From Sphingobacteriia bacterium (GTDB lineage: Bacteria; Bacteroidota; Bacteroidia; Bacteroidales; UBA7960): DNA of 64,000 nucleotides. Position 1 is the stretch's first letter. Each line of letters starts with the position of its first letter. Both the position numbers and the translations under genes were made by a program. The stretch is from the NCBI GenBank assembly GCA_011390785.1, contig JAABRR010000004.1, positions 62,001 through 126,000 on the forward strand. Reading direction: 5' to 3'. Under the pieces are notes generated by a model. That model had not been told where the DNA came from. It made no database searches and worked only from the letters and a program-made list of their open reading frames with translations. This document shows positions 2,682-57,161 of the stretch, in pieces.

Positions 2682-4805
2682 TTAATTAAAAAACATCCAT
2701 GAAACCCCAAATTTAAACATTGATTCAGGAATAGGATAAAACGGAATGTCGTAATGTGGCCGAACATCAAATATCATCCCAAGTAGGTTTTGATATTTTA
2801 TGAACAACCTGGCGTTGCTGATCTTTCCGTTCCAGAAAAAATCTACCAGGTACTTGTTGTTCATCAAATGTTGATCCTGTATATAAAACCCCCTTGAAAC
2901 CGGCATATAGGCCATGGCATTATACCCGGTGTTGAAATGAAAATCGAAACCAAACTGATTTACCAGTGCATTATCGAAGAATCCAATATTAAAAGCGATA
3001 GAATGGTAGGAAATAAATGTGGGGTAGTCTTCAAAATTCTCGCTGGTGGATTGCTGCAGCAGAATATGGTTCCTGAATCCAAATCTTCCCAGCCTGACAT
3101 CGCTATATGCTCCCAGGCTGAAAAAACTAAGTTCAAAATTGTTTTGCACGGGTAATGCGTCTTTTCCCAGATATACCATTCTGTCGAGTAAATAATAATT
3201 GCCTTCGAGTTTTACCCAGGGTAAATATAACCGGGCTTTAAGGTTTACAATCTGCATTTTACGAAAGTTATTGTCCCAGCGAATATTGTTTACCGAAAGA
3301 TGGTTATAAAAATAAGGGGATTCCGTTAATGAATAATTGAGAGAAGATTCGAGATGATATTTTTTACCAGGTTGTCCTACGTTTAAGAAAACACCTGCAT
3401 GTAGGTCTTCATCGTTATAACCTCCAATGGTTGCATTGGCGTGGCCACCGAATGATAGAAAAAGTCGCTGGTCTGATTGCAATTCTATCCCCTGTATTAA
3501 GGAATTAAAGGTTTCACGCGAATGGTAGTAGATCCTATCTCCATCATCATTATTTACAGGGTCATCAGCGGGGCGCACATCGGGTTGCTGAATGGTATTA
3601 ATGCTGTGTTTTAAAAAAAGCTTGAAGTTAAAAGGGAAGGTACCCCTTCCGCTACTTAAAGGAAAGTTTGACCATGATATCTGATTTTCAATTCGATGCA
3701 CTGCAGTGGAATCGAATGTGCTTGTGGAATCGAGTCTCGGGAAATCATAAAATGAATAGGGCTCTGCCTGATCATTATGCACAAATGCAGTGCGTTGGTA
3801 AGTAAAATCATGATTGAATCTTCCCAGATTGATGAATCTTTCTGTTTCTGCAGAATCTCCATTAATATAAAAACCTGTTTGGTAAAAATGTCGCAGGTTA
3901 ACAGAAAGATCGCGTACCCATGATTCGGCCCGGTAAAGAAATACACTATCTCTGACAGGATCTTGCTCAAAACTTTCAAAATTCTTTAATCCACCACTTT
4001 CCTGATTTCTGACACGATTAAGTATAAAGCTGCCCAAAGCCTGGTATCTCTTATCCTGGCTAAGGTAATCTGCTGTAAGGTTTAGATTGGTATTTCCAGA
4101 TGCCAGCCGGCTGAAGGCTCCGGGAGATTGCACAATTCTGTATTGAAAAGCCATGGTAAAGTTTTCCATAAGTTTTTGGGCATGTTTGGCATAAAACAGC
4201 TGCTCACGATTGCCGCCTGTTATGTAAAACAGATCGGTAAAAACGTGTTTTGGACGATAAAACTTCAGATCATTATGGGCAATAAGGTAATTTCCATAGA
4301 GTTTTCTGTCGTTTATTTTAAGTCCTGTCGAAAGATCAGGAGAAAATTTCAAATATCTGTGTGCATGCCCGGGGTTTCCCTTATCAGCAAAAAAGTAAGT
4401 ATTTTCAGCAGCGAAATCATACATTTGAAACCCCAGCAAAGTAGTATCTACGTAATTTGGAGTAAGGGCAAACGGGTTTTGTAGTTGCTCTTCTGTATAC
4501 CAGGGAATTGCCGATTTAGGAAGATCAATTCCTGCAGAATCAGAAGGAATATTGATACTTCTGGTGGGGCGGTTGGCAGATCTTTGTGATACAGGTTCTC
4601 TGGCTGGTAATGAATCAATGACTGCAGAATCTAATGTTGCAGCAGGAGCTAAGGTATCGGGCGCAGAGAACGGACGTATTATCGTATCGTACACTGTACG
4701 CGGCTGTCCAAATGTTTGATAAATAGTTACTCTACCACCTGTTAAAAGGATAACCAGAACAATAAAGCTTTGTAGAATGATCAATATCCGAAAACAACGG
4801 TGCAT
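2682..4805 (-). CDS. Putative porin (Bacteroidota outer-membrane beta-barrel)
   Basis: Probably an outer-membrane barrel of the Bacteroidota 'putative porin' family. The reading frame extends to a TTG at 4826, but the ATG at 4805 gives a basic residue followed by a hydrophobic helix (MHRCFRILIILQSFIVLVIL), as expected for a signal peptide or anchor, so it is preferred (707 residues). A proline/serine-rich linker covers about residues 40-95. The rest is rich in alternating aromatic/polar strands (for example LSFFSLGAYSDVRLGRFGF), and the protein ends on FKFGVSWMFFN, a typical barrel-closing strand with terminal aromatic residues. No TonB plug domain is evident. It lies alone between nifJ and an S9 peptidase, all on the minus strand. 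Substrate cannot be read from sequence. Confidence 0.75.
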   Translation of the reverse strand: MHRCFRILIILQSFIVLVILLTGGRVTIYQTFGQPRTVYDTIIRPFSAPDTLAPAATLDSAVIDSLPAREPVSQRSANRPTRSINIPSDSAGIDLPKSAIPWYTEEQLQNPFALTPNYVDTTLLGFQMYDFAAENTYFFADKGNPGHAHRYLKFSPDLSTGLKINDRKLYGNYLIAHNDLKFYRPKHVFTDLFYITGGNREQLFYAKHAQKLMENFTMAFQYRIVQSPGAFSRLASGNTNLNLTADYLSQDKRYQALGSFILNRVRNQESGGLKNFESFEQDPVRDSVFLYRAESWVRDLSVNLRHFYQTGFYINGDSAETERFINLGRFNHDFTYQRTAFVHNDQAEPYSFYDFPRLDSTSTFDSTAVHRIENQISWSNFPLSSGRGTFPFNFKLFLKHSINTIQQPDVRPADDPVNNDDGDRIYYHSRETFNSLIQGIELQSDQRLFLSFGGHANATIGGYNDEDLHAGVFLNVGQPGKKYHLESSLNYSLTESPYFYNHLSVNNIRWDNNFRKMQIVNLKARLYLPWVKLEGNYYLLDRMVYLGKDALPVQNNFELSFFSLGAYSDVRLGRFGFRNHILLQQSTSENFEDYPTFISYHSIAFNIGFFDNALVNQFGFDFHFNTGYNAMAYMPVSRGFYIQDQHLMNNKYLVDFFWNGKISNARLFIKYQNLLGMIFDVRPHYDIPFYPIPESMFKFGVSWMFFN

Positions 4806-4909
4806 AGAATAACTTGTAGAAATCAATAAAATATCTGGATTATTTTTGGCAAAGGTTACTAAATTTTAGAAAAGAAACGTGAATATGATCAATAGATTGT
4901 CTTTTTTTA

Positions 4910-6946
4910 TTATAAGGTTTTCAACCACTGGTCCAACCATTTAAAAAATTCCCTTTGCCATAAAATGCCATTCTGAGGTTGCAGGATCCAATGATTTTCA
5001 TTGGGGAACACAACCAATTTGCTGGGTATACCTTTCATTTGGGCAATGTTGTATGCCTGCATACCCTCTGCTAAAGGTACCCGGTAATCAAGAGCTCCAT
5101 GGGTTATCATAATAGGTGTATCCCAATTTTGCACAAATCTGTGAGCAGAAAAATCGTAGCTGTGCGGGCGGGGTTGTTCCCAATATGGGCCACCTATATC
5201 ATGATTGGCAAAAAAAAGTTCTTCGGTGGTTCCATACCAACTTTCGAAATTAAACATGCCGCTGTGGGCAATAAATGCTTTAAACAATCCATCGTGGTTT
5301 CCTGCAAGCCAGAATACTGAGAATCCGCCATAACTGGCACCTACAGCGCCCAAACGGGTTTCGTCTATGTAGGATTCTTTACTCACTTCTCGGGCCGCTG
5401 TGAGCAAATCCTGCATATTTTGGCCGCCATAATCCTGACTTATCTGGTCGTTCCATTCCTGCCCGAATGTGGGTAAACCGCGTCGGTTGGGAGCAATTAT
5501 CACATAATCATTGGCAGCCATCATCTGGAAATTCCAACGATAGGAAAAAAACTGGCTAACAGCACTTTGCGGGCCGCCGCCGCAATAGAGCAATGCAGGA
5601 TACTTTTTATTGGGATTAAAATTTGGTGGAACAATTACCCAAACCAACATTTGCTTACCATCGGTAGTTTCAATCCACTTCTGCTCAACTCTTCCCATTT
5701 GAATTTTTTCAAATACGGGGGCATTTACCTGTGTAATCTGCTTTTGTTTGCCATCACTGATATTGATGCTGAAAATTTCAACCGGAGCTGACATGCTCAT
5801 TCGTTCACCAACCAATTTGTCTTGCGCCACGGCTATTGAATTGTAATTATGCCAACCATCGGTTATTTGTTTAATCTCTCCGGTGGCCATTGAAAGACTG
5901 TAAATTTGGTATGTAGCATTATGGCCGCTAATAAAGTACAAAGTTTGGCTGTCACCAGACCAGGTAAAACTTCCGGAACTCTGATCAAAGTTCTCGGTAT
6001 AATCACGATAAAAGCCTGTTTCCATATCCATTATCATGATCCGCTCTTTATCAGATTCAAAACCTGGAGTTTTCATACTAACCCACGCCATGTATTTTCC
6101 ATCAGGCGAAAAAACAGGATATTTGTCGTAGCCGGGATTAAAATCAGTAAGATTTGTTGATTGCTGGTTTTCAATATCATAGAGATAAATGTCTGAATTG
6201 GTGCTTATGGCAGCATCAATACCTGTTTCTTTTTTACTGGTGTAAGCTATTTTCTTTCCGTCGGGTGTAAAGCTTATCTGATCTATGCCACCAAAGGGCG
6301 GGAGTGGGGAATGGAATTTTTCTCCATCCATTAAATCAATATACCTGCCCACATTGCCATCAGAATATGGTGCAATAAAAACATGACTAAATGAATAATT
6401 GTGCCATTTGTCCCAGTGTCTATACATAAGATCATCATAAATTAATGCATCGGAAAGCGGGAGATCTTTATGAATATCTTTGGGGGAATTTTCAAGCTTT
6501 ACACTTTTTACAAAAAAGATGTGTTTCATGTCAGGGCTATAATTAAAACCGGAAATTCCCCCCGGAATTTGGCTTACCTGTGTTTGATCGGTTCCGTCAA
6601 TATTCATTTCCCAGAGTTGGTTATTTCCACTTTGAGCACTTATGTAGCCAATTTTTTTACCATCAGGCCGCCATTTCTCATTTGACTCACCCGTAGTAGT
6701 ATTGGTGAGGTTTACAGGAGTACCGCCTTCTGAAGCTATCAGATAAATATCGCGGTTACTTTTTCCTGTTTCTATATTATAATAGGTAACACCAAATATT
6801 ACATTTTTTTCGTCGGGCGATACTTCCAAGCCGCTTACACGGCCAAATTCCCATAAGGTTTCCGGTGTCATAGCTTGTTTTTGGGCAAAAATTGAATGTG
6901 TCATTAAAATGATAAAAACATAAATAATACTAATTGAAAGCTTCAT
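4910..6946 (-). CDS. S9 family serine peptidase (prolyl oligopeptidase/DPP-like), exported
   Basis: Predicted periplasmic peptidase cleaving short peptides, possibly a dipeptidyl or acylaminoacyl peptidase. Residues 1-21 form a signal peptide ending SIFAQ. Residues about 40-400 contain repeated WD40/PD40 propeller blades (SPDEKNVIFG, RPDGKKIGYI, SPDGKYMAWV). The C-terminal alpha/beta-hydrolase domain has the nucleophile motif GASYGG (Ser538), Asp620 in GALDYRVP and His652 in NENHW, a complete catalytic triad in the order expected for S9. The length of 678 residues fits the S9B/S9C families. It stands as its own unit; the ATG at 6946 begins a normal signal peptide. The exact peptide specificity cannot be decided. 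Confidence 0.93.
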   Translation of the reverse strand: MKLSISIIYVFIILMTHSIFAQKQAMTPETLWEFGRVSGLEVSPDEKNVIFGVTYYNIETGKSNRDIYLIASEGGTPVNLTNTTTGESNEKWRPDGKKIGYISAQSGNNQLWEMNIDGTDQTQVSQIPGGISGFNYSPDMKHIFFVKSVKLENSPKDIHKDLPLSDALIYDDLMYRHWDKWHNYSFSHVFIAPYSDGNVGRYIDLMDGEKFHSPLPPFGGIDQISFTPDGKKIAYTSKKETGIDAAISTNSDIYLYDIENQQSTNLTDFNPGYDKYPVFSPDGKYMAWVSMKTPGFESDKERIMIMDMETGFYRDYTENFDQSSGSFTWSGDSQTLYFISGHNATYQIYSLSMATGEIKQITDGWHNYNSIAVAQDKLVGERMSMSAPVEIFSINISDGKQKQITQVNAPVFEKIQMGRVEQKWIETTDGKQMLVWVIVPPNFNPNKKYPALLYCGGGPQSAVSQFFSYRWNFQMMAANDYVIIAPNRRGLPTFGQEWNDQISQDYGGQNMQDLLTAAREVSKESYIDETRLGAVGASYGGFSVFWLAGNHDGLFKAFIAHSGMFNFESWYGTTEELFFANHDIGGPYWEQPRPHSYDFSAHRFVQNWDTPIMITHGALDYRVPLAEGMQAYNIAQMKGIPSKLVVFPNENHWILQPQNGILWQREFFKWLDQWLKTL

Positions 6947-44001: not shown

Positions 44002-47000
44002 ATGAATCTCGAGAAAAGCAGCCAAAGTAATTTTGAATATGAACTGGTTTTTGCCATAACCTTTCATCCGGTTTTAGGGTACCTTATTGAAGCATTTGCT
44101 GCTATGCGCAATAATAACGACCAGTTTGAATATGGTTTTAAAAAGGTAGTAAAAAGTACTTTATGGGATTATTTTACTGAACTTCCCGAACCTCAGCGCA
44201 TATTAATGGATAAGCTTCATGAGCTTTCTGATGAGCAGCTTCATAAACGTTTTGGCTCGCGAGCTTCTAAAATCAGCAGATTTTATGAGCTTCTTGAAAG
44301 TGAATATGTGGATAGACACATCAGGCCGTTTATCGAAAAAGTATTGTACAATAGCGTAGATTTTATGATTCAGCATAAAATACAGATTTACTATAAAGGA
44401 GAAAGTGGTGAAAGAATTAGAGAGACACCCTTAATTAGTAAGCCAAAAATTGCTGAAACCTGTTTTCATTTTGAACGCCAGCCAGATAAAACCCTTTACC
44501 GACTGGAAGTCAGGTATGGTGAGCAAGATTTGTATCTCTACCAGAAAAAAGCCCGTCTTATTACCCAAAAACCCTGTTTATTGATGCACGGAATTTACCT
44601 TCTACGTTTTGAACCTTCGTGGGATGGTAAAAAACTAGTGCCCTTTTTCGATAAAGAGTTTTTGGTTGTTCCAAAAAGTTCAGAAAAGCAGTTTTTTCAA
44701 AAATTCGTTCAGAAAAGTATTTCGAATTATCCTTATAAAGCCCTTGGCTTTACCGTAAATATTCTGGATCAAATACCTACGCCGGTTTTAAAGATGGAAG
44801 AGCACTGGCAGGGAGGGGTAATTCTGGGGTTATACTTTTCCTATGCCGATGGATCGGTTTTCAGAATGGATGATCCTGCCCGGGAAAAAATTAAATTCAG
44901 GGAAGAGAATGATGATCTGGTTTTTGATAAGGTTGTGAGAAACATGAGCTTTGAAACTGAAATGCAATCATTCTTAAAGTCTTTGAACCTAACCAAGATT
45001 GATGGCCCCTGGTTTTCTTTGTTCCCAACTGTAGGTAATGCTTTAGATCAAAAGGTTTATAATATTGAAAAACAAGTCTCTAAAACAGTAGATTGGTTCA
45101 ATGCAAATCATCAGTTATTACAGGATAAGGGGTTTGTTTGCGAAAAATCCATTTTCAACAAAACCTATCATACCGGTGAATATTCCTTAAACCTGAAAGT
45201 AGAAGAAAAAAACGACTGGTTCGATCTGTATGGCATGGTGAAGTTTGGCAAAGTGGAAGTACCTTTTGTCTATCTCACCGATAACATCCTAAATGGCAAC
45301 CGCGAATATGAGCTTAAAGATGGTTCCATTGCCCTGATACCCGAAGAATGGATGACCAGCTATAAGGATCTTTTTAAGTTCAGTCACAGAAAAGGGCGCG
45401 AAATAAAAGTCAGGAAGTTTCATTATACTTTGCTTTCTTCATTACAGCATCAGGGTGTTCGGCTGCCTGCCTTCTATAAAAAGAGTATTGAAAAAAGATA
45501 CGGTTTACCTGAATTGCTCCAGGCAGAGCTGCGTCCCTATCAATACGACGGTTTTAACTGGATGATGTTTTTACAATCGAACCGGCTGGGCGGTTGCCTG
45601 GCCGATGATATGGGGCTGGGGAAAACACTACAGGCTTTGGCTATACTAACGCATATGCATGGCAGGAAACAATCAGACGTAAGTGAAAACGGAAATTATT
45701 TTATTCCAACTAAAGCAAATAGTGAAAAGACAGGCCAATTATCCCTTTTTGGAGATTCTACAGACAAATCCGAAATGCCGGAACAGGAAATAGCAGAATC
45801 CAGAAGTTCTTTAATTGTAATGCCTTTATCGCTTATTCATAACTGGATGGAAGAGATACGGCATTTCTCGCCTTCACTCAGGGTTTATCAGCACACTGGG
45901 GGCGGACGTACCAATGATCTAAGCGTTTTTAATCGTTACGACCTGATTCTTGCCACTTACGGTACAGTGCGAAACGATATCCAAATGCTGGAAAAATACT
46001 TCTTCAAATACATTATTCTGGATGAGAGCCAATTGATAAAAAACGCTTCATCAAGAATTTTTGGGGCGATAAAAAAACTACAATCAGATCACAGGTTGGT
46101 ACTAACAGGAACACCCATTGAGAATTCACTGGCTGATCTGTGGTCGCAATTTGCTTTTATCAATCCGGGCATGTTGGGTAGCTTAAGCTTTTTCAAAAGA
46201 GAATTTGTTACCCCGGTAGAAAAGCGTAATGATGATATTGCCGGCCAGAAATTACAGAAGCTGGTTGAGCCTTTTATTCTGAGAAGAACCAAAAGCCAGG
46301 TTGCCAAAGAACTACCCCCGCTATCAGAAAAAATACATTTTTGTGAAATGACTCCCGAGCAGGCGCTGTATTACGAAACCAAAAAATCGCAAATCAGAAA
46401 TGCCATTGCGCAAAGCCTGAAAGACAAAGGGGAGGATAAGTCGCGATTCTTTATTTTGAGCGGGCTTACGCGGCTTAGGTTAATTGCCAATCACCCGGGA
46501 ATTATTGATCAGGAATACATGCATGAATCAGGCAAATTCATTGAAATAAAACGGAACATCGAGAAAATTCTTGCTGAAGACCACAAGGTGCTTATCTTTT
46601 CGCAGTTTGTAAAATATCTCAATCTTTTTGCCAGAGATTTTCAAAATGAAAACCTGCCCTTTAGCCTGTTAACCGGCAAAGTTGCTGAAAAGAACCGCCA
46701 GGAAGTAATTCAGAATTTCCAATTGAACGATTGGGTCAGGCTATTTTTAATATCGCTTAAAGCAGGGGGTGTAGGATTGAATCTTACAGGGGCCGATTAC
46801 GTTTTTATGCTCGACCCCTGGTGGAATCCGGCCATTGAGCAGCAGGCCATCAACAGGGCACATCGTATTGGTCAGGATAAGAATGTTTTTGTTTACAAAT
46901 TCATTACCCGAAACACGGTAGAAGAAAAAATCCTAAAGTTACAGCAGAAAAAATCTGACCTGGCCAGTATGTTTATCAATGACAACAACCCGCTGAAATC

Positions 47001-47034
47001 ACTATCGTTTGAAGAGCTCTCGGAGTTGATTTAG
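44002..47034 (+). CDS. Snf2/Rad54-family DEAD/DEAH helicase-like ATPase
   Basis: A 1010-residue DNA translocase-like ATPase. The first ~500 residues are not obviously related to known domains and are mostly mixed alpha/beta. The RecA-like motor then shows motif I DDMGLGKTLQALA (about 535), motif II ILDESQLIKN, motif III LTGTPIENSLADLWSQF, and the C-terminal lobe VLIFSQFVKYL, GGVGLNLTGADYVFMLDPWWNP and AINRAHRIGQDKNVFVYKF. An acidic insert (about 560-600) lies between motifs I and Ia. It ends 8 bases from the convergent TPR gene. Such enzymes are thought to remodel protein-DNA complexes. Confidence 0.95.
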   Translation: MNLEKSSQSNFEYELVFAITFHPVLGYLIEAFAAMRNNNDQFEYGFKKVVKSTLWDYFTELPEPQRILMDKLHELSDEQLHKRFGSRASKISRFYELLESEYVDRHIRPFIEKVLYNSVDFMIQHKIQIYYKGESGERIRETPLISKPKIAETCFHFERQPDKTLYRLEVRYGEQDLYLYQKKARLITQKPCLLMHGIYLLRFEPSWDGKKLVPFFDKEFLVVPKSSEKQFFQKFVQKSISNYPYKALGFTVNILDQIPTPVLKMEEHWQGGVILGLYFSYADGSVFRMDDPAREKIKFREENDDLVFDKVVRNMSFETEMQSFLKSLNLTKIDGPWFSLFPTVGNALDQKVYNIEKQVSKTVDWFNANHQLLQDKGFVCEKSIFNKTYHTGEYSLNLKVEEKNDWFDLYGMVKFGKVEVPFVYLTDNILNGNREYELKDGSIALIPEEWMTSYKDLFKFSHRKGREIKVRKFHYTLLSSLQHQGVRLPAFYKKSIEKRYGLPELLQAELRPYQYDGFNWMMFLQSNRLGGCLADDMGLGKTLQALAILTHMHGRKQSDVSENGNYFIPTKANSEKTGQLSLFGDSTDKSEMPEQEIAESRSSLIVMPLSLIHNWMEEIRHFSPSLRVYQHTGGGRTNDLSVFNRYDLILATYGTVRNDIQMLEKYFFKYIILDESQLIKNASSRIFGAIKKLQSDHRLVLTGTPIENSLADLWSQFAFINPGMLGSLSFFKREFVTPVEKRNDDIAGQKLQKLVEPFILRRTKSQVAKELPPLSEKIHFCEMTPEQALYYETKKSQIRNAIAQSLKDKGEDKSRFFILSGLTRLRLIANHPGIIDQEYMHESGKFIEIKRNIEKILAEDHKVLIFSQFVKYLNLFARDFQNENLPFSLLTGKVAEKNRQEVIQNFQLNDWVRLFLISLKAGGVGLNLTGADYVFMLDPWWNPAIEQQAINRAHRIGQDKNVFVYKFITRNTVEEKILKLQQKKSDLASMFINDNNPLKSLSFEELSELI

Positions 47035-47042
47035 CCAATGTA

Positions 47043-47669
47043 TTAATCGATCAGTTTTAGCCCTTCTAAAGCCGATTCACTTGAAGGGGTATTCAACAAT
47101 GCTTTTTGAAAAAGCACTTTCGCTTCCCGATATTTTTTTTGCTGAAAGTTTGTCCAGCCCAGCATTAACAATCCATCATAATCAAAAGGATAAAGATTTA
47201 CAATTTTCTTGAAGTATTTCTCCGCTTCATCGTACTGCAATCTGTTGTAGTAAATTAACCCCATATTATACAAAGACAATGTGTTAGATGGGGCTATTTC
47301 GAGTACATGTTTATATTGTTGAATAATGGCATCCCAGTTACCGGTAACTGAAAGGGGGTAGGTAATGCCCAATTTAGGTTCTATGGAAAAAGGCTTTAAC
47401 CGAATGGCACGCTCGTAGTAGTTTACGGATTCGCCCTGGTAGCCAGCCAGATAGGATAACCACCCCAGTCGGATATTCATTTCGTATGATTCCTGGTCGT
47501 AAACGGATTTAATTGCATTAATAGCCAGATCAAATTTCTGTTCTGTTTCGTAAATGTAGCTTTGGGAAAAAGATTCCAGCGTTTTTTCGTTGTCGAATCT
47601 TGCGGCATGCAAGCTAGCCGAAGTCGCAAGCAGAATAAAAAATATAGTTGTTCTTCTTATAGTTTCCAT
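47043..47669 (-). CDS. Exported TPR protein, last gene of the PqqD/ATP-grasp operon
   Basis: A 208-residue protein with a short signal peptide (about 1-22, SASLHAAR) and about four tetratricopeptide repeats, such as AGYQGESVNYYERAIRLKP, YNMGLIYYNRLQYDEAEKYFKKIVNLYP and FQQKKYREAKVLFQKALLN. It is likely a periplasmic assembly or scaffold protein. Its start codon lies inside the end of the preceding 451-residue gene (13-base overlap), so the two are translationally coupled. Function unknown. Confidence 0.8.
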   Translation of the reverse strand: METIRRTTIFFILLATSASLHAARFDNEKTLESFSQSYIYETEQKFDLAINAIKSVYDQESYEMNIRLGWLSYLAGYQGESVNYYERAIRLKPFSIEPKLGITYPLSVTGNWDAIIQQYKHVLEIAPSNTLSLYNMGLIYYNRLQYDEAEKYFKKIVNLYPFDYDGLLMLGWTNFQQKKYREAKVLFQKALLNTPSSESALEGLKLID

Positions 47670-49012
47670 ATGAGCCCTCCGGAAATGTTTATAGTCGAAT
47701 AATTTTGTTGATTTTCAAATTGTAGTGGTTCCAAATCTGTCCGATATTCACTCGAACTGTTGGTATACGAAAAGCTCCCAACCCATTGCAGATTTTTAGA
47801 AGGCATGGGAATAATAGCTCTTATGATTAGTGGATTGGTGGTAGTTTCAAGTGCATTAAAAAGGATGTTATTGTTAATATCGTACCAGTTCGACAGGTCT
47901 CCTGCAATTGTTTCAGCTTCCAGCCAGAGTGATCGGGACACTTTGAATCCCAATTTGTGCTGATGGATATAGGATGACAGTTTTGTGCTTCCGCTTTCCT
48001 GTTGGTGATAGTACCCACTAACCGAGTAATAAAGGTTAAGATTGGCGAAAGGATAGATTTTCAGGTGCGCTCCTGCCTGGGTGGCACGAACCGAATTAAC
48101 AGTTCCTGTGGCTCCAGATAAACCGGTGGCAAATCGGGCAAAATCTTTTTCCAGACTAAGAAATGAAAGGAAATGGGTTTCATTGTAATAGCCGATGGTT
48201 GAATAACCGTTCCTCCCAAATCCGGAAAAAACCGTGCTATAAATTGGAATATTGGTGTGCGATACAATGAAGCCAGGAGATATCCTAAATCCATAAACAG
48301 GTGTTATGTGTAAGGCGAGCATGTATTCCAGCAAATTAATGGATTGATCAGTATTAATTACCATTTCCTGATCATCTTTTAAAAGACTGAATTCATTTTT
48401 CCTCATGTATCCCACCCTGTGTTCAGCCAAAATGCTATTGCCTCCCAGTTTGTGAGTAAGGCCTATTTGTGGAAAAAAATAACTTTTCATAGCTTTTTGT
48501 ACGCCATCTTGTTCAGGGTTGAAATTATTGATGATGGTAGAAATTGCATTCCCAGAAGAAGCATTGCCATAAGTTAAAAAGAAGTAAAAATCAGTAATCT
48601 GCTTTGTATATCGTTGATATACGGCAAGGTTGTTTCTGAAATTGATTTTTGATGAAGCTTTAATGGCGTCGTTTTTTCTTCCACCAAATTCATAACTATT
48701 TAAAAGAAAGTTTAAAGCAATCGGATCCTGGCTGTTAAACGCAAGAGCTTTCTCATAATGCCGGGCTGCCAGTCTGTATTTACCCTGGGCGTAATAAGAC
48801 CAGGCAACACGCATACGCAGGTAATAATAATCCAGACCATTGTCTATAGAATGCTTCGCGGTTTTTCTCAGCCCTTCCCAATCGCCAGCCAGGTATTGCT
48901 GGTAAGTAAGCGAATCAACCGAAGGGAAGTGAACACTTTGCTGAGCGTTCAGATCAAAAAATCCGGTAAAGCTTACTATGGTAAGTAAAATGATTAAACT
49001 GTATCTGCGCAT
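47657..49012 (-). CDS. Outer-membrane protein with TPR N-terminus and beta-barrel (YaiO-like architecture)
   Basis: A 451-residue protein with a signal peptide (about 1-24, FDLNAQQS), two or three TPR units (about 30-130: YYAQGKYRLAARHYEKALAFNSQDP) and a C-terminal barrel of strands rich in aromatic residues, ending ISGGLIWKL. The overall plan resembles YaiO-type outer-membrane proteins, but the match is not firm. It overlaps the UT-M23 gene by 19 bases and the next TPR gene by 13 bases. It may form the outer-membrane part of the operon's product path, which is inference. Confidence 0.72.
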   Translation of the reverse strand: MRRYSLIILLTIVSFTGFFDLNAQQSVHFPSVDSLTYQQYLAGDWEGLRKTAKHSIDNGLDYYYLRMRVAWSYYAQGKYRLAARHYEKALAFNSQDPIALNFLLNSYEFGGRKNDAIKASSKINFRNNLAVYQRYTKQITDFYFFLTYGNASSGNAISTIINNFNPEQDGVQKAMKSYFFPQIGLTHKLGGNSILAEHRVGYMRKNEFSLLKDDQEMVINTDQSINLLEYMLALHITPVYGFRISPGFIVSHTNIPIYSTVFSGFGRNGYSTIGYYNETHFLSFLSLEKDFARFATGLSGATGTVNSVRATQAGAHLKIYPFANLNLYYSVSGYYHQQESGSTKLSSYIHQHKLGFKVSRSLWLEAETIAGDLSNWYDINNNILFNALETTTNPLIIRAIIPMPSKNLQWVGSFSYTNSSSEYRTDLEPLQFENQQNYSTINISGGLIWKL

Positions 49013-51210
49013 CTTTCTAGAGTCAATTTTTTATCGGGTTTGAAAATGGTAAAAGAACATAAGCCAAATTCCGTTATTTTAATGGAATACTTTTTCCTGG
49101 AAATTTCTTTTTTTAATATTTTGTTTATAGCATTGGAATTCAGTGTTATAGATGATTGGTCAAAAGAGTTGTCGTAAGTACTGTACTGCAGTAAATACAC
49201 CGATTTGGTAAATATTTTAAAGGGGCTTATGAAATCCTGAAACCACAAGTATTTTTTGGGGAAATGAAGGTGCAGGGGATAACTGTCATTAATTTCAAGA
49301 TTCTTGTAAAACCCTTTCTGAATTTTGTAAGCTCCCAGAAAAAATTCGTACAAAAATCCATTTCTATCTCCATAAAACTGGGTAAAGTAAAACAAGCTTT
49401 CATGATTCTCGAAATAGGCAAGACTTCGGGTTTCCCGACAATAAAGGTACGATTGGTTGAGGGGATTAACTTTCACCTCCCAGGTAACTTCGCCAATTTC
49501 TTTATTATTTTCTTTTATTTTAAAATTAAATAACTGTCCGGGAACCAGCTGAAAAGCATTTTTCAACAATTCGTTTACATCTACATTAGAAACCAGGTCA
49601 TCTTTATGGGGCCTTGCATAACTCATATAGTCCGTAGATTCGGGATTGTGCTTAATATAGTTCATGAAGGGGTAATCCATTGTAAAAGAGCCAATCCAGG
49701 GGTTTTCCTGCATCTGAAAATGAAGGTGGGGGTAAGGTGATCTGCCGGAATTGCCACAACGGCCCAGCATTTGTCCGGCAGTAACTTTATCTCCTTCTTT
49801 TACTTCGATGGAATCTTTTTTCAAATGACTTAATTTGGAATAGGTGTGGTCATCGTGCTTTAAAATCACCGTATTACCCCAGTTATCCTTCAGATTTACC
49901 TGCCCGATAACATTGTCTTCAATATCGTTGGTTACTTTCTCTACAACTCCGTCAGCCGGAGCAATGACAGGTTTGTTGAAGCAATAGTAGTCTTCTGCGT
50001 AGTTGCCTTTATTGCTGAATTGCTTATTTTCATTATCTACAATGACAAAATCAAAAGCATGTTTCCACTTGTCCTGATGGGTATATTCACCATCATGTGC
50101 CTGCGAAACCTGCCAGGTACCCCAAAAAGGCAACTTAACCGGAATCAGATGATGATAACGGAACCGTTCTATTTTATTATAAAACGTATAGAGATTCTTT
50201 TCGGGCGAATTGAACTGGAAAAAAACTTCTGAAAGCTTGTGTGAATAATCTACCCTGAATTTCAAAATGTATAAATACAGTAAGGTAACAAGGGTAAAGG
50301 GTAGTGAATACAAGGGTAATCTGAAGGTATAAAAGATTCCACTCAAACTCAACGTAATCACCGCCACCATAGGGATAAGAACAACCACACTCAGGTAGGA
50401 CCGTTTGGAAGGTATAAGAAAAAAACCACCTACTGCAATAGATGTAAGGATGTAATTAAACCCAATATAGCTGTAATCGTAACTATTTATCTGAACCCCA
50501 ATGAGCGAGTAAAATGTCCAGGCTACCAAAAAACCCAGTACAGCCAGTGTGAAGCCAATCCGGCTAAACCAAAGCAACCCCAACGCTATTACAATACCGG
50601 CAATAATGTTATACTGAAAGAATATGGCACTCAGCGATACAAGGAAAGATTTTGGAATTTCTGGCATTGGAAGAGCTGAAAATGATTCGTAAATTCTTAC
50701 CAGGGGCAATCCCCCCAGGGCATAAAACTCATTGAGGGTATAAATGCCCCGCTCGTTTATACCTAACACAGTAAAATTCGAAGATGCCATGAAAAAGGCC
50801 CATATAGTGAGCAAAAAAGGAAAACTCAGAAAGGGCAAGTGATATTTCCCGATAACGCCCTGTAGCGATACAGATACAAACAAGCTGAAGATGGAGGCAA
50901 TAATAATGATAAACACCAGGTGTGGGGAAAAATAGTAATAAACCCCCAGGCCCAAACCGGTAAGAAGACTGTTAAACCCATAAAGCCCTTTGGCTATTAC
51001 CGATCGGTCGAAGTTTAGAGCAAACCCCACAATTGAAGTGGTAATTACGGCCAGTAAACCAGCCAATCCGGCAAAAGGATCAAAAAACGAAATAACGATT
51101 AATAAGGTGGCAAACCCTCGGTGATCAGAAAAGAAAACCTGGGAGTAACTGTTAAAGATACTCCGCAGGAAGTGATCGAAATCCGTTTTGGTCATTGGAA
51201 ATACTTTCAT
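48994..51210 (-). CDS. Urea-transporter-family protein fused to an M23 metallopeptidase-like domain
   Basis: A 738-residue inner-membrane protein. Residues about 30-335 carry many hydrophobic helices with the UT-family style SYSQVFFSDHRGFATLLIVISFFDPFAG, and NSLLTGLGLGVYYYF repeated as a related half near 205-260. Residues about 370-515 form a LytM/M23 domain: HAFDFVIVD supplies the His/Asp pair, and GRCGNSGRSPYPHLHFQM the HxH zinc motif; GVVEKV and NTVILKHDDHTYSKLSHL fit too. The final ~220 residues are unrecognised. Urea transport and peptidoglycan cleavage are known for the separate families; the role of the fusion is inference. Confidence 0.8.
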   Translation of the reverse strand: MKVFPMTKTDFDHFLRSIFNSYSQVFFSDHRGFATLLIVISFFDPFAGLAGLLAVITTSIVGFALNFDRSVIAKGLYGFNSLLTGLGLGVYYYFSPHLVFIIIIASIFSLFVSVSLQGVIGKYHLPFLSFPFLLTIWAFFMASSNFTVLGINERGIYTLNEFYALGGLPLVRIYESFSALPMPEIPKSFLVSLSAIFFQYNIIAGIVIALGLLWFSRIGFTLAVLGFLVAWTFYSLIGVQINSYDYSYIGFNYILTSIAVGGFFLIPSKRSYLSVVVLIPMVAVITLSLSGIFYTFRLPLYSLPFTLVTLLYLYILKFRVDYSHKLSEVFFQFNSPEKNLYTFYNKIERFRYHHLIPVKLPFWGTWQVSQAHDGEYTHQDKWKHAFDFVIVDNENKQFSNKGNYAEDYYCFNKPVIAPADGVVEKVTNDIEDNVIGQVNLKDNWGNTVILKHDDHTYSKLSHLKKDSIEVKEGDKVTAGQMLGRCGNSGRSPYPHLHFQMQENPWIGSFTMDYPFMNYIKHNPESTDYMSYARPHKDDLVSNVDVNELLKNAFQLVPGQLFNFKIKENNKEIGEVTWEVKVNPLNQSYLYCRETRSLAYFENHESLFYFTQFYGDRNGFLYEFFLGAYKIQKGFYKNLEINDSYPLHLHFPKKYLWFQDFISPFKIFTKSVYLLQYSTYDNSFDQSSITLNSNAINKILKKEISRKKYSIKITEFGLCSFTIFKPDKKLTLERCADTV

Positions 51211-51259
51211 CCGCTATGCTGATAATGCCAAAAAATGGCGGCGTATCATTTGATGATTT

Positions 51260-52618
51260 TTAAAGTGTGAATTTACGCAAATGTTCTGGTACCCGATCAA
51301 GAGCATTCATGGTTTCATGGTTTTCATTTTCCCTTACGATATAAGGTTTGCCATCCATACCAATCATCACTACTTTGGGCCGGTAGGTAATGAATTGAAG
51401 CCACTGGGTCATATTGTAGGCGCCAATTCTGGGTATTACAACGTGTTCTCCTTTTTCGATTACCGGAAATTGCACAGCACTCCTGATTACATCAATATTC
51501 ATACACAAAGGGCCGTAGATAGTGGTGTCGTCCATGTCGGTGTATTGCTCCTGAGCCGGCATAATGGTATGCTCATACCAAAAAGAAGTAAAAAGGTTGT
51601 TGATGCCTATATCGATGATCATGGAACGGCGCCCGTCGGCAAGTCGTTTGTTGGCAAGCACTGTTCCCAGAAGATAGCCAGCATCATCAATAAGGGCTCG
51701 TCCGGTTTCCAGAATAAGGGTGGGCATTTTATCATACTGAATATCAGAATTATTGAGTGCCTGTGAAATGGCTTCGGCATATTCATCAAATGATGGGCAA
51801 GTATCTGAACCTGGTAAATATGCCCCTTTTAATGTGTTTTTCGATGCAAATCCACCACCCATGTCAATGTACTTTATGTAATGGTTGAACTTGCGAAAAG
51901 TTTTTACCGCCAGTTCTGCCAGCTTACTGGTAGCAACAGAGTAGGGCATAGGGCTCATGATATAGGTGCCAATATGTGTATGGAGACCCAGTAAATCCAG
52001 ATTGGGCTGCGTCATAATTTTATTTATAGCCGACCAGGCTTCGCCGTTTTCATAATTGAATCCAAAACGATCCCATTGCGGATAAATACCTGTATCCATA
52101 TTTACCCTGATGGCAACTTTGGCTTTTTTCTTCAGTTTTTCGGTAATGGCAATCAGTGCGTGTAATTCATCAAAATGATCTAAATGAATGTAAGATCCAT
52201 TTTCTACGGCAATGGTAAGGTCTTCGTCTGATTTATCGGGGCCATTAAAAATGATATTGCTTCCGGGCACTCCGTTGGCAATAGCCTTCTGGTATTCAAA
52301 CCCTGACACTACCTCTGCCCATGATCCTTCCTGATGATAAACGTTGCAAACAGCATTGAGATAGTTAGTTTTGTACGACCAGGCCATCTGCACTTTTGGA
52401 TACCTGGTTGTGAAAGCTCTAAGCACAGACTGATAAGTATTCCGAATGGTTTTTTCAGAGATAATGTACAAGGGTGAGCCGAATTCTTTAATCAGATCGG
52501 CAACCAAATTATTATCGATATGTGTTAGGGGTTTAATTTGTGATTTCATCCCGTATTTATCGGGAACTCCTGCTTTTATGCGGGTAATTAGCGGTCTTTC
52601 AAATTTTTTCTTTTCCAT
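51260..52618 (-). CDS. Fold-type III PLP decarboxylase (diaminopimelate/ornithine decarboxylase-like)
   Basis: A 452-residue PLP enzyme of the alanine-racemase-fold decarboxylase group. The PLP lysine is Lys83 in MAWSYKTNYLNA. The barrel carries HTHIGTY-type LLGLHTHIGTYI, GGGFASKN and ETGRALIDDAGYLLG, the last being the phosphate-binding ExGR motif. The C-terminal domain has GPLCMNIDVI, with the cysteine that reaches into the partner active site, and IGAYNMTQWLQF. It could act on diaminopimelate, but the family also includes enzymes working on carrier-bound amino acids. It lies 11 bases after the ATP-grasp gene, so a shared pathway is likely. Confidence 0.87.
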   Translation of the reverse strand: MEKKKFERPLITRIKAGVPDKYGMKSQIKPLTHIDNNLVADLIKEFGSPLYIISEKTIRNTYQSVLRAFTTRYPKVQMAWSYKTNYLNAVCNVYHQEGSWAEVVSGFEYQKAIANGVPGSNIIFNGPDKSDEDLTIAVENGSYIHLDHFDELHALIAITEKLKKKAKVAIRVNMDTGIYPQWDRFGFNYENGEAWSAINKIMTQPNLDLLGLHTHIGTYIMSPMPYSVATSKLAELAVKTFRKFNHYIKYIDMGGGFASKNTLKGAYLPGSDTCPSFDEYAEAISQALNNSDIQYDKMPTLILETGRALIDDAGYLLGTVLANKRLADGRRSMIIDIGINNLFTSFWYEHTIMPAQEQYTDMDDTTIYGPLCMNIDVIRSAVQFPVIEKGEHVVIPRIGAYNMTQWLQFITYRPKVVMIGMDGKPYIVRENENHETMNALDRVPEHLRKFTL

Positions 52619-52629
52619 TGGGTGGTTAT

Positions 52630-53673
52630 TTATATTTCTCCGTCTATTGATATTTTTCTAAAATCGTTGATGTCGGCAATAAGATCGTAAGAATATCTTA
52701 CAAACATTTTTCCTATGTCATACTGCGTCATAGGTTCAACCTTTTTGCCAATAGCCAATAGGGCAAGAGCTTCCGGAATATTCTGGCCAGCACCTACCGC
52801 CAGGTAAACCCATGCCGGAATGCGCGGATTGATTTCAATCAGGTAATACTCTCCGGCTGCTGTTTTAATCATTTCGAGTTCCATGCCCCCTTTCCATTTC
52901 GACTTTTCAATCAAACTATGGGTAATATCAAGGAGTTTCTTATCGGCAATGGTGATACCGCTCCATGCCTTTCCCTTGTCGGTAATAAACTGTTTTCGCA
53001 TAGGCACCGCCGCGATGGTTTGGCCTTGTCCGTCGCCCAGTGCTACAACATTTACCTCTGTACCTTTTACATACTGCTGAATAATAACAGGCAGGCCCCA
53101 TTTGGCGTTAAGAGAATGAAAATACCCGGCAACCTGGTCAGGATTATAGGCCAGATGAGCATCATAAAATTTCCCTTTCACAAAAACCGGGTAGTCGAAA
53201 TGATCGGTTATCTTGGCGATGTCTGCAGCAGATGTCAATGATATACTCTTTGGAACCAGCACGTTGTATTTTTCACCGTACTTTTCGAGTACGTTTTTCT
53301 GTCTCTCTTCAAACTGCGAAAACCCGGGTAAGAAAGCCTTTATACCTTGCTGATTGAGCAAAGATTCTGCCTTCATAAAAGTAAAAAGCTCGGCATCGAG
53401 ATTAGGGATAATCAAATCGAAGGCTGTTTTCTGGTAAATTTCTATCAGCCTGTTAAGAAAAGCTTCGGCTCCGCCTGATGGGTAGGGAATCATGTAAATC
53501 TTGTCGGTTAGCTCCTTCATGTAAATGCCGGGTTCCAGATTTTCATAAACCAACCCAATGATTTTTACATTGAGTTTTGTAGATTCCTTCAACCCCCGTA
53601 TTACCGGAACTCCCGGACCCGGATTGTCTGTATTGTTAAGCCCCGTTATGGCTATGGTTACATCCTTCTTCAT
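52630..53673 (-). CDS. ATP-grasp domain ligase
   Basis: A 347-residue ATP-dependent carboxylate ligase of the carbamoyl-phosphate-synthase-like ATP-grasp type. Residues 1-110 form a preATP-grasp domain beginning AITGLNNTDNPGPGVPVIRG. The ATP site is seen in DYPVFVKGKFYDAHLAY, VIIQQYVKGTEVNVVALG and, near the C-terminus, YYLIEINPRIPAWVYL, whose Glu and Asn bind Mg2+. It lies 5 bases after the PqqD-like gene. Substrates unknown; a peptide- or amino-acid-joining role is inference from the family and neighbours. Confidence 0.88.
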   Translation of the reverse strand: MKKDVTIAITGLNNTDNPGPGVPVIRGLKESTKLNVKIIGLVYENLEPGIYMKELTDKIYMIPYPSGGAEAFLNRLIEIYQKTAFDLIIPNLDAELFTFMKAESLLNQQGIKAFLPGFSQFEERQKNVLEKYGEKYNVLVPKSISLTSAADIAKITDHFDYPVFVKGKFYDAHLAYNPDQVAGYFHSLNAKWGLPVIIQQYVKGTEVNVVALGDGQGQTIAAVPMRKQFITDKGKAWSGITIADKKLLDITHSLIEKSKWKGGMELEMIKTAAGEYYLIEINPRIPAWVYLAVGAGQNIPEALALLAIGKKVEPMTQYDIGKMFVRYSYDLIADINDFRKISIDGEI

Positions 53674-53678
53674 GCTAA

Positions 53679-53930
53679 TTATTCTCCTTCTGCTTCAAAA
53701 AGTTCGTAACGCTTTAGCATATTTACAAAATCATCGATATAATGTATGAGCATGGACTTCTCCACATCGTATTCTTCCATTATTTTTTTAGCAATTTCTT
53801 CATTCTCCTTACCTTCTTTTATCATAGCAAGAATAACCTGTCCTGTTTTGTTTACTGTGTAAGAATCACCAGTATTAGCATCAAAGAGAAATCCCGAGTC
53901 ACTAATGGCAATATTACTTTTTATTGACAT
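53679..53930 (-). CDS. PqqD family protein (peptide chaperone-like)
   Basis: An 83-residue protein with the PqqD fold signature: a beta-strand start (SNIAISDSGFLFDANTGDSYTVN), helix TGQVILAMIKEGKENEEIAKKIMEEYDVEKSMLIHYIDDFVNML and a short acidic end. In known systems PqqD-like proteins bind ribosomally made precursor peptides and deliver them to modifying enzymes. It is the first gene of the six-gene operon; no precursor peptide was found near. Strong in fold, weak in exact role. Confidence 0.82.
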   Translation of the reverse strand: MSIKSNIAISDSGFLFDANTGDSYTVNKTGQVILAMIKEGKENEEIAKKIMEEYDVEKSMLIHYIDDFVNMLKRYELFEAEGE

Positions 53931-54421
53931 TTTTTAGAAAATTAAAAGTTAAATATTTGGGTTAGAAATCTGACCTTAAAATTAGTTGTTAAATAAGAGA
54001 AAAAAAACAGTAGTAACACGCTTTTTCTGCTTAAAAAAACACCTGGTTATGCAGATAGTAACATATCTGAATGTGAGATTAGATAGTGAAAAACTGTAAT
54101 GGTTTAATTTGGCGAAAAAAAAACTGAAAAGTATTTTTGGGGGTTGTTTATAGCTGCAGGATATCAGGCAAAACCTGATGCTCAAAGAACGGTTAACGAT
54201 TAAATATATCTTTTTTCGTTTAATTTATTACACGAAAATATTTCATAATAGACAACAAGCATTTTCTTTTTTTTATCTTTCTATAAGCCCTTGAAGCACA
54301 AGAACAGGATCAATAGTTGAATGAATACCTGCAGATTAAAGATGCATGCATGAAGATGTTTCGACTGATTTAGCTATTGTAATTTAATATTCAAATTTCA
54401 CAAAATTCAAAATAAGATATT
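53931..54421. other. Intergenic region upstream of the PqqD operon and the broken toxin-antitoxin pair
   Basis: About 490 bases, very A+T-rich. No perfect TAnnTTTG element was seen on the minus strand ahead of the PqqD-like gene. A short minus-strand open frame (53982-54185) looks accidental. No tRNA, repeat or attachment site was recognised. It may contain further decayed sequence belonging to the toxin-antitoxin locus. Confidence 0.5.
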
Positions 54422-54659
54422 ATGTACACAACATATCATTTAAAATCAGCTCTGGAAGTAAGCTCCGATATTTTAGATGCGATTAAAGCTACATTTGAAA
54501 GTAAACCTATTACTATAAATTATGAAAGAAGACGAAGACGAGCTTGACCTTATGCAAGATTTGAAAACTGTTTTGGATGAACGTCTTCAGGAGGATGAAA
54601 CCACCTATCTGACTGTCGAAGAATCGATCAACCAACTCAATAAAAAGTATGGCTTATAA
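54422..54659 (+). pseudogene. Frameshifted antitoxin of a RelE/ParE-type module
   Basis: Two short open frames together make one plausible antitoxin of about 76 residues. The first (54422-54547) begins MYTTYHLKSALEVSSDILDA and continues through ITIN before going out of frame and stopping at 54545-54547. The second, in another frame (54522-54659), reads MKEDEDELDLMQ and ends SINQLNKKYGL, the usual form of the C-terminal end in these antitoxins. The break falls near 54515-54525. The 3' end overlaps the toxin start by 11 bases, as in intact modules. The alternative is that the 45-residue second frame alone is expressed. Confidence 0.65.
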
Positions 54660-54944
54660 AATCATGATTTCGCCACGCGCTCAAAAGGAAATTGAAAACG
54701 CCATTGATTACTACGCTTTATATAGCGTTGATGCTCCTGAAAATGTCATAGCTGTTCTTAAAGAAAATTATGCAACATTGGAAATAAACCCATTTTTTAA
54801 GGTACGTTAAAAAATGTTCGTTCCTTCAAACTCAAAAAGTTTCGACATTCTATTTATTTTGTAATCAAAAAAAACCAAAACATCATTAAGGTGCTTTCCT
54901 GCTTCCACAATAAACGAAACCCAAATAAAAGACCGGGATTATAA
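54649..54944 (+). pseudogene. Frameshifted RelE/ParE-type toxin
   Basis: An ORF of 53 residues (54649-54810) begins MAYKIMISPRAQKEIENAID and reads INPFFKVR before a TAA at 54808-54810. Restoring one base there (TAT instead of TA) reopens the frame to KNVRSFKLKKF, HSIYFVIKKN, IIKVLSCFHNKRNP and a stop at 54944, giving a normal toxin of about 98 residues. The core ending SCFHNKRNP is the family's usual C-terminus. Hence a one-base loss has inactivated the toxin. The gene overlaps the antitoxin by 11 bases. Confidence 0.78.
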
Positions 54945-55079
54945 TATGAAATATGCATGAAAAATCACCTGATGGTGTGCCTCCTTTCCATTATTTGAAT
55001 TTTACCCCAGGATTTTAGATGGTCAAAAAGATTTCTGAAACTTTCACCCCCCCAATTATTATTTCTACTCAACTGACAT

Positions 55080-55116
55080 AAAAAAAGCCCTGTAACAATT
55101 GTCGTCACAGGGCTTT
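55080..55116 (-). terminator. Rho-independent terminator of gyrB
   Basis: On the minus strand, AAAGCCCTGT/ACAGGGCTTT forms a 10-base stem followed by a run of T residues, 21 bases after the gyrB stop codon. Confidence 0.88.
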
Positions 55117-55136
55117 CAAGGATTATGCAAAACGCT

Positions 55137-57161
<2,025 letters not shown>

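Follow-up and report, generated by a model that had tools for sequence, protein, structure and literature searches.

A conserved six-gene unit of Bacteroidota that may make and move a small molecule

The window analysed here, 64,000 nucleotides of contig JAABRR010000004.1 (positions 62,001 to 126,000) from a Sphingobacteriia bacterium, contains six minus-strand genes at 47043-53930 that together encode a PqqD-like protein, an ATP-grasp ligase, a fold-III pyridoxal phosphate (PLP) decarboxylase, a urea-transporter (UT) channel fused to an M23 metallopeptidase (UT-M23), an outer-membrane barrel protein and a tetratricopeptide-repeat (TPR) protein. We find that the six genes form one unit, which recurs across Bacteroidota. 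The unit supplies proteins for every compartment (soluble, inner membrane, periplasm and outer membrane), and is therefore best explained as serving both the synthesis and the transport of a small molecule. We tentatively propose, at somewhat less than even confidence, a dedicated small-molecule pathway with its own route across both membranes.

The open reading frames (ORFs) are separated by gaps of 5, 11 and 49 bases and by overlaps of 19 and 13 bases, exactly as an earlier reading of the sequence alone had described them. That reading also treated the six genes as one operon, and this is borne out by a survey of 392 Bacteroidota genomes, drawn evenly over the phylum and at least 90% complete. 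At a threshold of E 1e-60 the ATP-grasp profile matched 35 genomes, and the UT-M23 profile matched the identical 35 and none of the other 357. Loci were fetched from 34 of these genomes, the genome of the window being left out. In all 34 the ATP-grasp, decarboxylase and UT-M23 genes share a strand, with spacings of at most 268 and at most 690 bases, and 4-base overlaps occur at many gene junctions. The TPR protein was matched in 31 of the 34, directly after UT-M23 in 17, and PqqD in at least 32; one locus, L161, is apparently without PqqD. Furthermore, a genome scan gave at least 533 matches, the best 80 of which, not a random sample, are referred to here as the named loci. The exact six-gene order is present in 47 of these 80, and another 25 are truncated by contig ends, a locus being called incomplete if the contig leaves room (600 nt upstream and 900 nt downstream). 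Draconibacterium, Maribellus and Labilibaculum are examples of genera with the full set. PqqD was matched in 76 named loci, the ATP-grasp gene of the other four lying at most 435 nt from the contig start, and the TPR protein was matched in 50.

Clear orthologues of the ligase (51-66% identity, one partial) were found in 12 of 58 other relatives, and, wherever the contig is long enough, the other genes adjoin them in an unchanged order. The exceptions are L029 and L037, which carry inserted extra genes, and L030, where UT-M23 lies on the opposite strand; the same inversion is present in L096, perhaps one and the same contig, and a few genomes may be counted twice among the 80 named, 12 relative and 34 survey loci. 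Most insertions of extra genes lie next to the decarboxylase, separating it from the ligase on one side or from UT-M23 on the other. Pairwise distances of the ATP-grasp, decarboxylase, UT-M23 and TPR proteins correlate at 0.87-0.92 (69-102 loci), as expected for co-inherited genes. Chance adjacency is ruled out by the perfect co-occurrence and the fixed order. Together, the results show that the same gene set can be found in other genomes in a fixed order, and that relatives bearing the genes keep them together rather than scattered.

The pqqD-like gene (53679-53930, 83 amino acids) encodes a stand-alone recognition protein of the PqqD/RRE type (RRE, RiPP recognition element), as found in clusters for ribosomally synthesized and post-translationally modified peptides (RiPPs), with a Pfam PqqD score of 36.6 bits against a cut-off of 23.4. 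The RiPP-specific NCBIfam PqqD models all fall below cut-off for this protein; indeed no NCBIfam model reaches its cut-off for any of the six. Residues G13, F14, F16, G21 and N27 are invariant in 101 of 101 sequences. Residue counts given here refer to 101 PqqD, 113 ligase, 102 decarboxylase and 84 UT-M23 sequences (the last of 660-790 amino acids), length limits having been set and shorter or split sequences dropped. A role for the PqqD-like protein as a LysW-like carrier with a C-terminal acidic residue was ruled out, as its tail is not conserved. The ligase (52630-53673, 347 amino acids) belongs to the CPS-like (PRK12767) group and matches ATPgrasp_Ter at 38.8 (cut-off 29.1) and ATP-grasp_3 at 25.3 (23.2). 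Its residues K166, E265, E267, E280, N282 and R284, which we take to be catalytic, are invariant in 113 of 113 sequences, and K168 varies (73/113). In G182, one of the survey genomes, the ATP-grasp gene occurs at 3928-4956 and at 3735344-3736372 of contig C1 with equal score, probably through an uncut overlap of a circular assembly.

The decarboxylase (51260-52618, 452 amino acids) has the alanine-racemase fold (Pfam Orn_Arg_deC_N 107, Orn_DAP_Arg_deC 48). Its nearest solved structure is the N-citrylornithine decarboxylase 7kh2 at 186 bits, followed by diaminopimelate (DAP) decarboxylases at 143 and BtrK at 87. The PLP lysine K83 and residues H215, C372, M373, D376 and Y401 are invariant in 102 of 102 sequences. 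In a ligand model of this enzyme (FigC), according to PMC7857480, M355 and Y383 stack, R290 and Y331 reach the amide via water, and H357 and R387 hold citrate. FigC M355, Y383 and R290 are kept as M373, Y401 and R307 in all 102 sequences, T327 as T344 in 101 and Y331 as Y348 in 99. In contrast, FigC H357, R387 and T330 are replaced by I375, Q405 and W347, each in 102 of 102. Because the citrate contacts are replaced while the amide and stacking residues are kept, the pocket would fit an amide-linked amino acid with a partner other than citrate. PMC8503589 names, as non-polyamine members of the fold besides DAP decarboxylase, three citryl-amino-acid decarboxylases, MccE and BtrK; as we read it, every known member that does not belong to polyamine or lysine synthesis works on a group already attached, and this favours a ligation step ahead of the decarboxylation. 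It is thus likely, judging from these residues and relatives, that an amino acid is attached to a non-citrate partner and then decarboxylated.

The sequence-only reading had invoked the logic of BtrJ and BtrK. The attach-then-decarboxylate part of this idea remains the best guess, but the enzyme lies nearer to 7kh2 than to BtrK and the operon holds no carrier. The decarboxylase is also not the sole DAP decarboxylase of its genome. As a candidate LysA it was rejected, scoring 217 bits against a cut-off of 297.9, and a separate LysA, whose gene overlaps an ORF read as aspartate kinase, scores 393 with TIGR01048. Another fold-III decarboxylase is encoded in the same genome (contig C129, 42364-43071), beside a GNAT-like ORF identified by reading; it scores 193 bits with the LysA model (cut-off 297.9).

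The UT-M23 fusion (48994-51210, 738 amino acids; Pfam UT 206, cut-off 25; Peptidase_M23 66) is composed of a UT channel at about residues 1-320, an M23 domain at about 355-517 and a C-terminal beta-rich part (AlphaFold pLDDT 87.3). The channel matches urea-transporter structures at Z of about 35 over about 310 residues and the M23 part matches LytM-domain structures at Z of about 14. For the part beyond about residue 540, the VIA-align list for the full-length model showed no clear match. H378, D387, H462, H495 and H497 are invariant in 84 of 84 sequences and are the expected zinc ligands and catalytic histidines; H378 would be a zinc ligand, although its spacing of 9 to D387 is unlike HxxxD.

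Several observations bear on the side of the membrane on which the M23 domain lies. With helix limits taken from a single AlphaFold model, Lys plus Arg counts alternate from loop to loop, both ends of the UT domain fall on the positive side, and the loop at 144-183 carries a net negative charge (K+R 2.0 versus D+E 3.75). In known urea transporters this loop, named T5a-Pb, is periplasmic according to PMC4357013. The charge pattern, taken with this periplasmic loop, makes a cytoplasmic M23 domain most likely, and a cytoplasmic M23 domain need not act on the cell wall. Two weak hints agree. First, relatives of the M23 region include haloarchaeal proteins (7 of the 20 matches listed, from 82 plasmid records), although the best match is from Thermus and the commonest genera are bacterial. 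The Haloferax relative shares the stretches SH...YA.DF, YC.....APADG and HLHFQ and, by reading, has no obvious cleavable signal. Second, in L133 (9944-12198), from a one-contig genome, UT and M23 are encoded by two ORFs that overlap by 4 bases and divide in the linker, the M23 half beginning without a signal sequence; either the gene is truly divided here, or the break stems from a frameshift or an error of assembly.

Transport across the outer membrane could involve the last two proteins. The 451-amino-acid product of 47657-49012, for which Pfam gives only sub-threshold TPR matches, is modelled as N-terminal TPR helices followed by 14 long strands (AlphaFold pLDDT 90.4, pTM 0.84). The barrel matches CymD (6z34; Z 20.0, root-mean-square deviation 3.8, 252 residues aligned), CymA (Z 18.7) and OmpG (Z 18.0), and also TodX and FadL, at identities of 6-10%, a likeness of fold only. 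The model and its matches to 14-strand porins support the earlier assignment as an outer-membrane protein. CymD, TodX, FadL, CymA and OmpG are small-molecule channels, and the barrel could possibly transport in or out. The window-type barrel protein was matched in 11 survey loci. Among the 17 with TPR directly after UT-M23, five that were read (L139, L140, L143, L149 and L160) carry next a barrel-like ORF of about 275 amino acids without the TPR part; this short barrel gives at best a sub-threshold Pfam porin match (L162). The TPR protein itself (47043-47669, 208 amino acids) has Pfam TPR repeats and, from reading of its sequence, a hydrophobic signal-like N-terminus, and is probably periplasmic. 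For the five proteins other than the barrel, Pfam matches above cut-off agree with the identities first assigned, and the division into three soluble-looking and three envelope proteins also stood.

Starting from the computed unit, order, co-occurrence, conserved active-site residues and folds, we infer a reaction order, a location and substrate for the M23 domain, a direction of transport and a product. In the cytosol the ATP-grasp enzyme, helped by the PqqD-like protein, would link an amino acid side chain to an acyl partner, and the fold-III decarboxylase would then strip the free alpha-carboxylate to leave an amine-bearing amide. Facing the cytoplasm at the UT channel, the M23 domain would cleave the conjugate or gate the channel. 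The small product would cross the inner membrane via the UT channel, and the TPR protein and the 14-strand barrel would bring it across the outer membrane. A more specific and unlikely version of this scheme is that a small product is cut from a PqqD-bound conjugate by the cytoplasmic M23 domain and then leaves through the channel, making the fusion a peptidase-fused channel of a new kind. If true, there would be, besides peptidase-fused ABC exporters, another means of linking export to final maturation, one scattered across the whole phylum.

Several points weigh against the proposed pathway. M23 proteins are usually envelope enzymes, so a cytoplasmic one would be unusual, and the closest M23 structures in the present comparison are envelope enzymes. 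UT channels pass very small neutral solutes, a poor fit with a charged amine. The NCBIfam models for FslC and LysA score the decarboxylase nearly equally, at 223 and 217 bits, both below cut-off. Eight of the 80 named loci are without expected genes although the contig continues: for example, UT-M23 is absent from the following 5-6 kb in L093 and L106, and L095 has no decarboxylase within 4.6 kb. The set is also patchy, the window's own genus holding only one ligase orthologue, the partial one, of the 12 found among relatives.

Of the alternatives, we consider first a RiPP-type pathway, in which PqqD would bind a precursor whose gene lies elsewhere, or a portion of a secreted companion, the ATP-grasp enzyme and decarboxylase would modify it and M23 would cut it, as in peptidase-fused exporters. 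We regard this as improbable. In its favour, the PqqD proteins of RiPP pathways act as chaperones of peptides and, according to PMC8503589, MccE, which shares the fold of the decarboxylase, acts on a peptide-nucleotide. Against it, the UT pore is too narrow for a peptide. Small ORFs of 18-90 amino acids were collected on the operon strand from the gaps, 1.5 kb upstream and 1.2 kb downstream at 115 loci, and no conserved candidate appeared among the first 25 clusters, which held pqqD itself, pieces of the regulator described below and clusters of 2-4 loci; a precursor that changes fast or is encoded far off could be missed. The small conserved ORF that the sequence-only reading had proposed to look for was thus not found, and its suggestion of a product built on a peptide or carrier is left without support, there being no carrier in the operon and no such ORF nearby on its strand. 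Pfam finds no acyl carrier among the six proteins, no profile search of the neighbours for one having been made, and the six include no radical-SAM enzyme.

Companion genes also speak for a peptide. In 13 of the 34 survey loci the region upstream of pqqD encodes companion B, a secreted protein bearing a type IX sorting tail, and in 10 its gene directly adjoins pqqD. Its N-terminal domain profile matches 14 of 392 genomes, all among the 35 with the operon (Fisher 1e-16); in G182 a gene with such a domain lies far from the operon. A different protein with a tail of the type IX secretion system (T9SS), companion A, is encoded near 15 other loci, but was rejected as a general partner, since just one of the 6 genomes (of 392) in which it occurs has the operon. 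The N-terminal domains of A and B have no detectable relation (hhalign probability 1.6%), and their joining by an iterated full-length profile was attributed to the shared sorting tail. In G315, a genome without the operon, the companion-A N-terminal domain occurs three times in each of two open frames of 571 and 537 amino acids, on contigs C44 and C6. Neither companion was found in the window's own genome, which argues against a RiPP-type pathway. Sorting tails are present in 35 of 35 operon genomes (E 1e-3); at E 1e-10 they occur in 220 of 296 sampled genomes, in 27 of 27 with the operon versus 193 of 269 without (Fisher 3e-4). As this contrast is uncorrected for kinship, dependence of the operon on T9SS was set aside as weak.

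A modification of the cell wall or envelope would explain the same proteins differently: an amine or amide would be attached to peptidoglycan, a periplasmic M23 domain would open the wall, and the TPR protein and barrel would anchor or sense. The invariant M23 active site, the closest M23 structures (wall enzymes or their activators, such as ShyA, DipM and EnvC) and the envelope nature of TPR protein and barrel are consistent with such a function. However, the charge pattern places the M23 domain inside, and relatives of this region occur in haloarchaea, organisms without peptidoglycan; we doubt this explanation.

Metal or iron handling, in which an ATP-grasp ligase in place of a rhizoferrin-type synthetase would make a small metal-binding compound, appears quite unlikely. 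The decarboxylase is closest to the rhizoferrin enzyme, but none of the 102 sequences retains the citrate-binding residues and no TonB-dependent receptor is among the six proteins. The neighbourhood offers some support. Clustering of 480 flanking ORFs gave two large clusters, from 37 and 19 of the 80 named loci, the rest reaching at most 7. The 37-locus cluster comprises an AraC-type regulator, response regulators and one large protein. Sixty-two named loci have at least 1.2 kb of upstream sequence, and in 29 of them the AraC-type regulator, which has an N-terminal CC motif, ends no more than 2 kb ahead of the operon; three loci with a shorter upstream stretch have it as well, and 30 of these 32 regulators share the operon strand. 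In 20 of 114 loci a DUF2202 gene, whose product is presumably ferritin-like, is found close to the operon; this count and that of the regulator are raw, with no genome background set beside them. Against these, the regulator lies at most 2 kb away in only 1 of the 34 survey loci, and metal sensing through an HMA domain was judged weak, Pfam HMA matching 3 of 21 regulators with a best E of 0.029. A search of the window's own genome found no DUF2202 and, elsewhere in it, only a distant relative of the regulator. Since this genome has neither companion, no DUF2202 and only the distant regulator, we conclude that regulator, DUF2202 and secreted companions are accessories of some lineages.

Finally, that urea or a related nitrogen compound is taken up via barrel and UT channel and then used by the enzymes is very unlikely: the UT fold is present and dvUT Q24 and F27 are largely kept (75 and 83 of 84), but the E187 position is Ala in 64 of 84 and T130 is Ser in 82, no urease or amidase is among the six, and urea use needs neither a ligase nor a decarboxylase.

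The surroundings of the operon in the window include, downstream, a helicase-like ORF (SNF2-type, read from its translation) on the opposite strand that ends 8 bases from the operon and, upstream, 1.2 kb between pqqD and an ORF read as gyrB. Within this interval, at 54522-54810 on the plus strand, a 45-amino-acid ORF with no Pfam match precedes a 53-amino-acid ORF weakly resembling ParE toxin (19.4 bits, cut-off 23), perhaps a decayed toxin-antitoxin pair. An Rfam scan of 46900-55300 gave no RNA family reaching its gathering score. Two of the most distant loci, L161 (8106-8564) and L164 (9272-9766), encode upstream of the operon a small protein that looks secreted and, as noted by eye, has an FEAAVW...C motif common to both; the L161 protein has no Pfam match. 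A DUF4405-type membrane protein, identified by Pfam in L078 (12753-13568) and by eye in L085 (2382-3251) and L116 (7090-7923), lies in or beside the operon.

No description of the six-gene combination was found in open-licence papers, in line with the sequence-only reading, which knew of no system with the full set; the available parts of PMC10352776 and PMC8939145 do not show it, and nothing was found in open-licence papers on DUF2202 or on the regulator. A set kept together across the phylum, in 35 of 392 genomes, with no description found, is a good candidate for a widespread metabolite pathway. The enzymes are small and soluble-looking, so the chemistry is directly testable. Furthermore, the UT-M23 fusion poses the structural question of what role a metallopeptidase plays at the mouth, probably the inner mouth, of a urea-type channel.

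The closest known parallel is rhizoferrin synthesis by FslA/FslC (FigA/FigC), where a ligase joins an acid to the side-chain amine of an amino acid and a fold-III decarboxylase then removes the carboxylate. FslC/FigC is the closest solved relative of the present decarboxylase, which has the CM motif and some of the pocket in common with it. In contrast to rhizoferrin synthesis, the ligase here is of the ATP-grasp type rather than an NRPS-independent siderophore (NIS) synthetase, and the citrate-binding residues are replaced; no NIS (IucA/IucC) family was found among the six proteins, the rest of the genome not being searched. We know of no counterpart of the PqqD-like protein, UT-M23, TPR protein or barrel in the rhizoferrin pathway. 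Butirosin synthesis by BtrI/BtrJ/BtrK likewise combines an ATP-grasp-type ligase with a fold-III decarboxylase in an attach-then-decarboxylate logic, but the present operon is without an acyl carrier protein, its decarboxylase is more distant (87 bits) and it has a dedicated membrane route. The PqqD and RRE proteins of pyrroloquinoline quinone (PQQ), lasso-peptide and other RiPP pathways are similar in that a small stand-alone PqqD-family protein stands beside modifying enzymes, and differ from this operon, which is without a radical-SAM enzyme and for which no precursor peptide was found. The urea transporters dvUT and UT-B share the UT fold and its two-repeat topology, whereas here the channel is fused to M23 and a C-terminal beta part and its selectivity filter is partly changed. 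C39-ABC exporters, if the proposed topology is right, are similar in joining a cytoplasmic peptidase domain to an export channel; the channel and peptidase families are unrelated, and a peptide substrate would be putative here.

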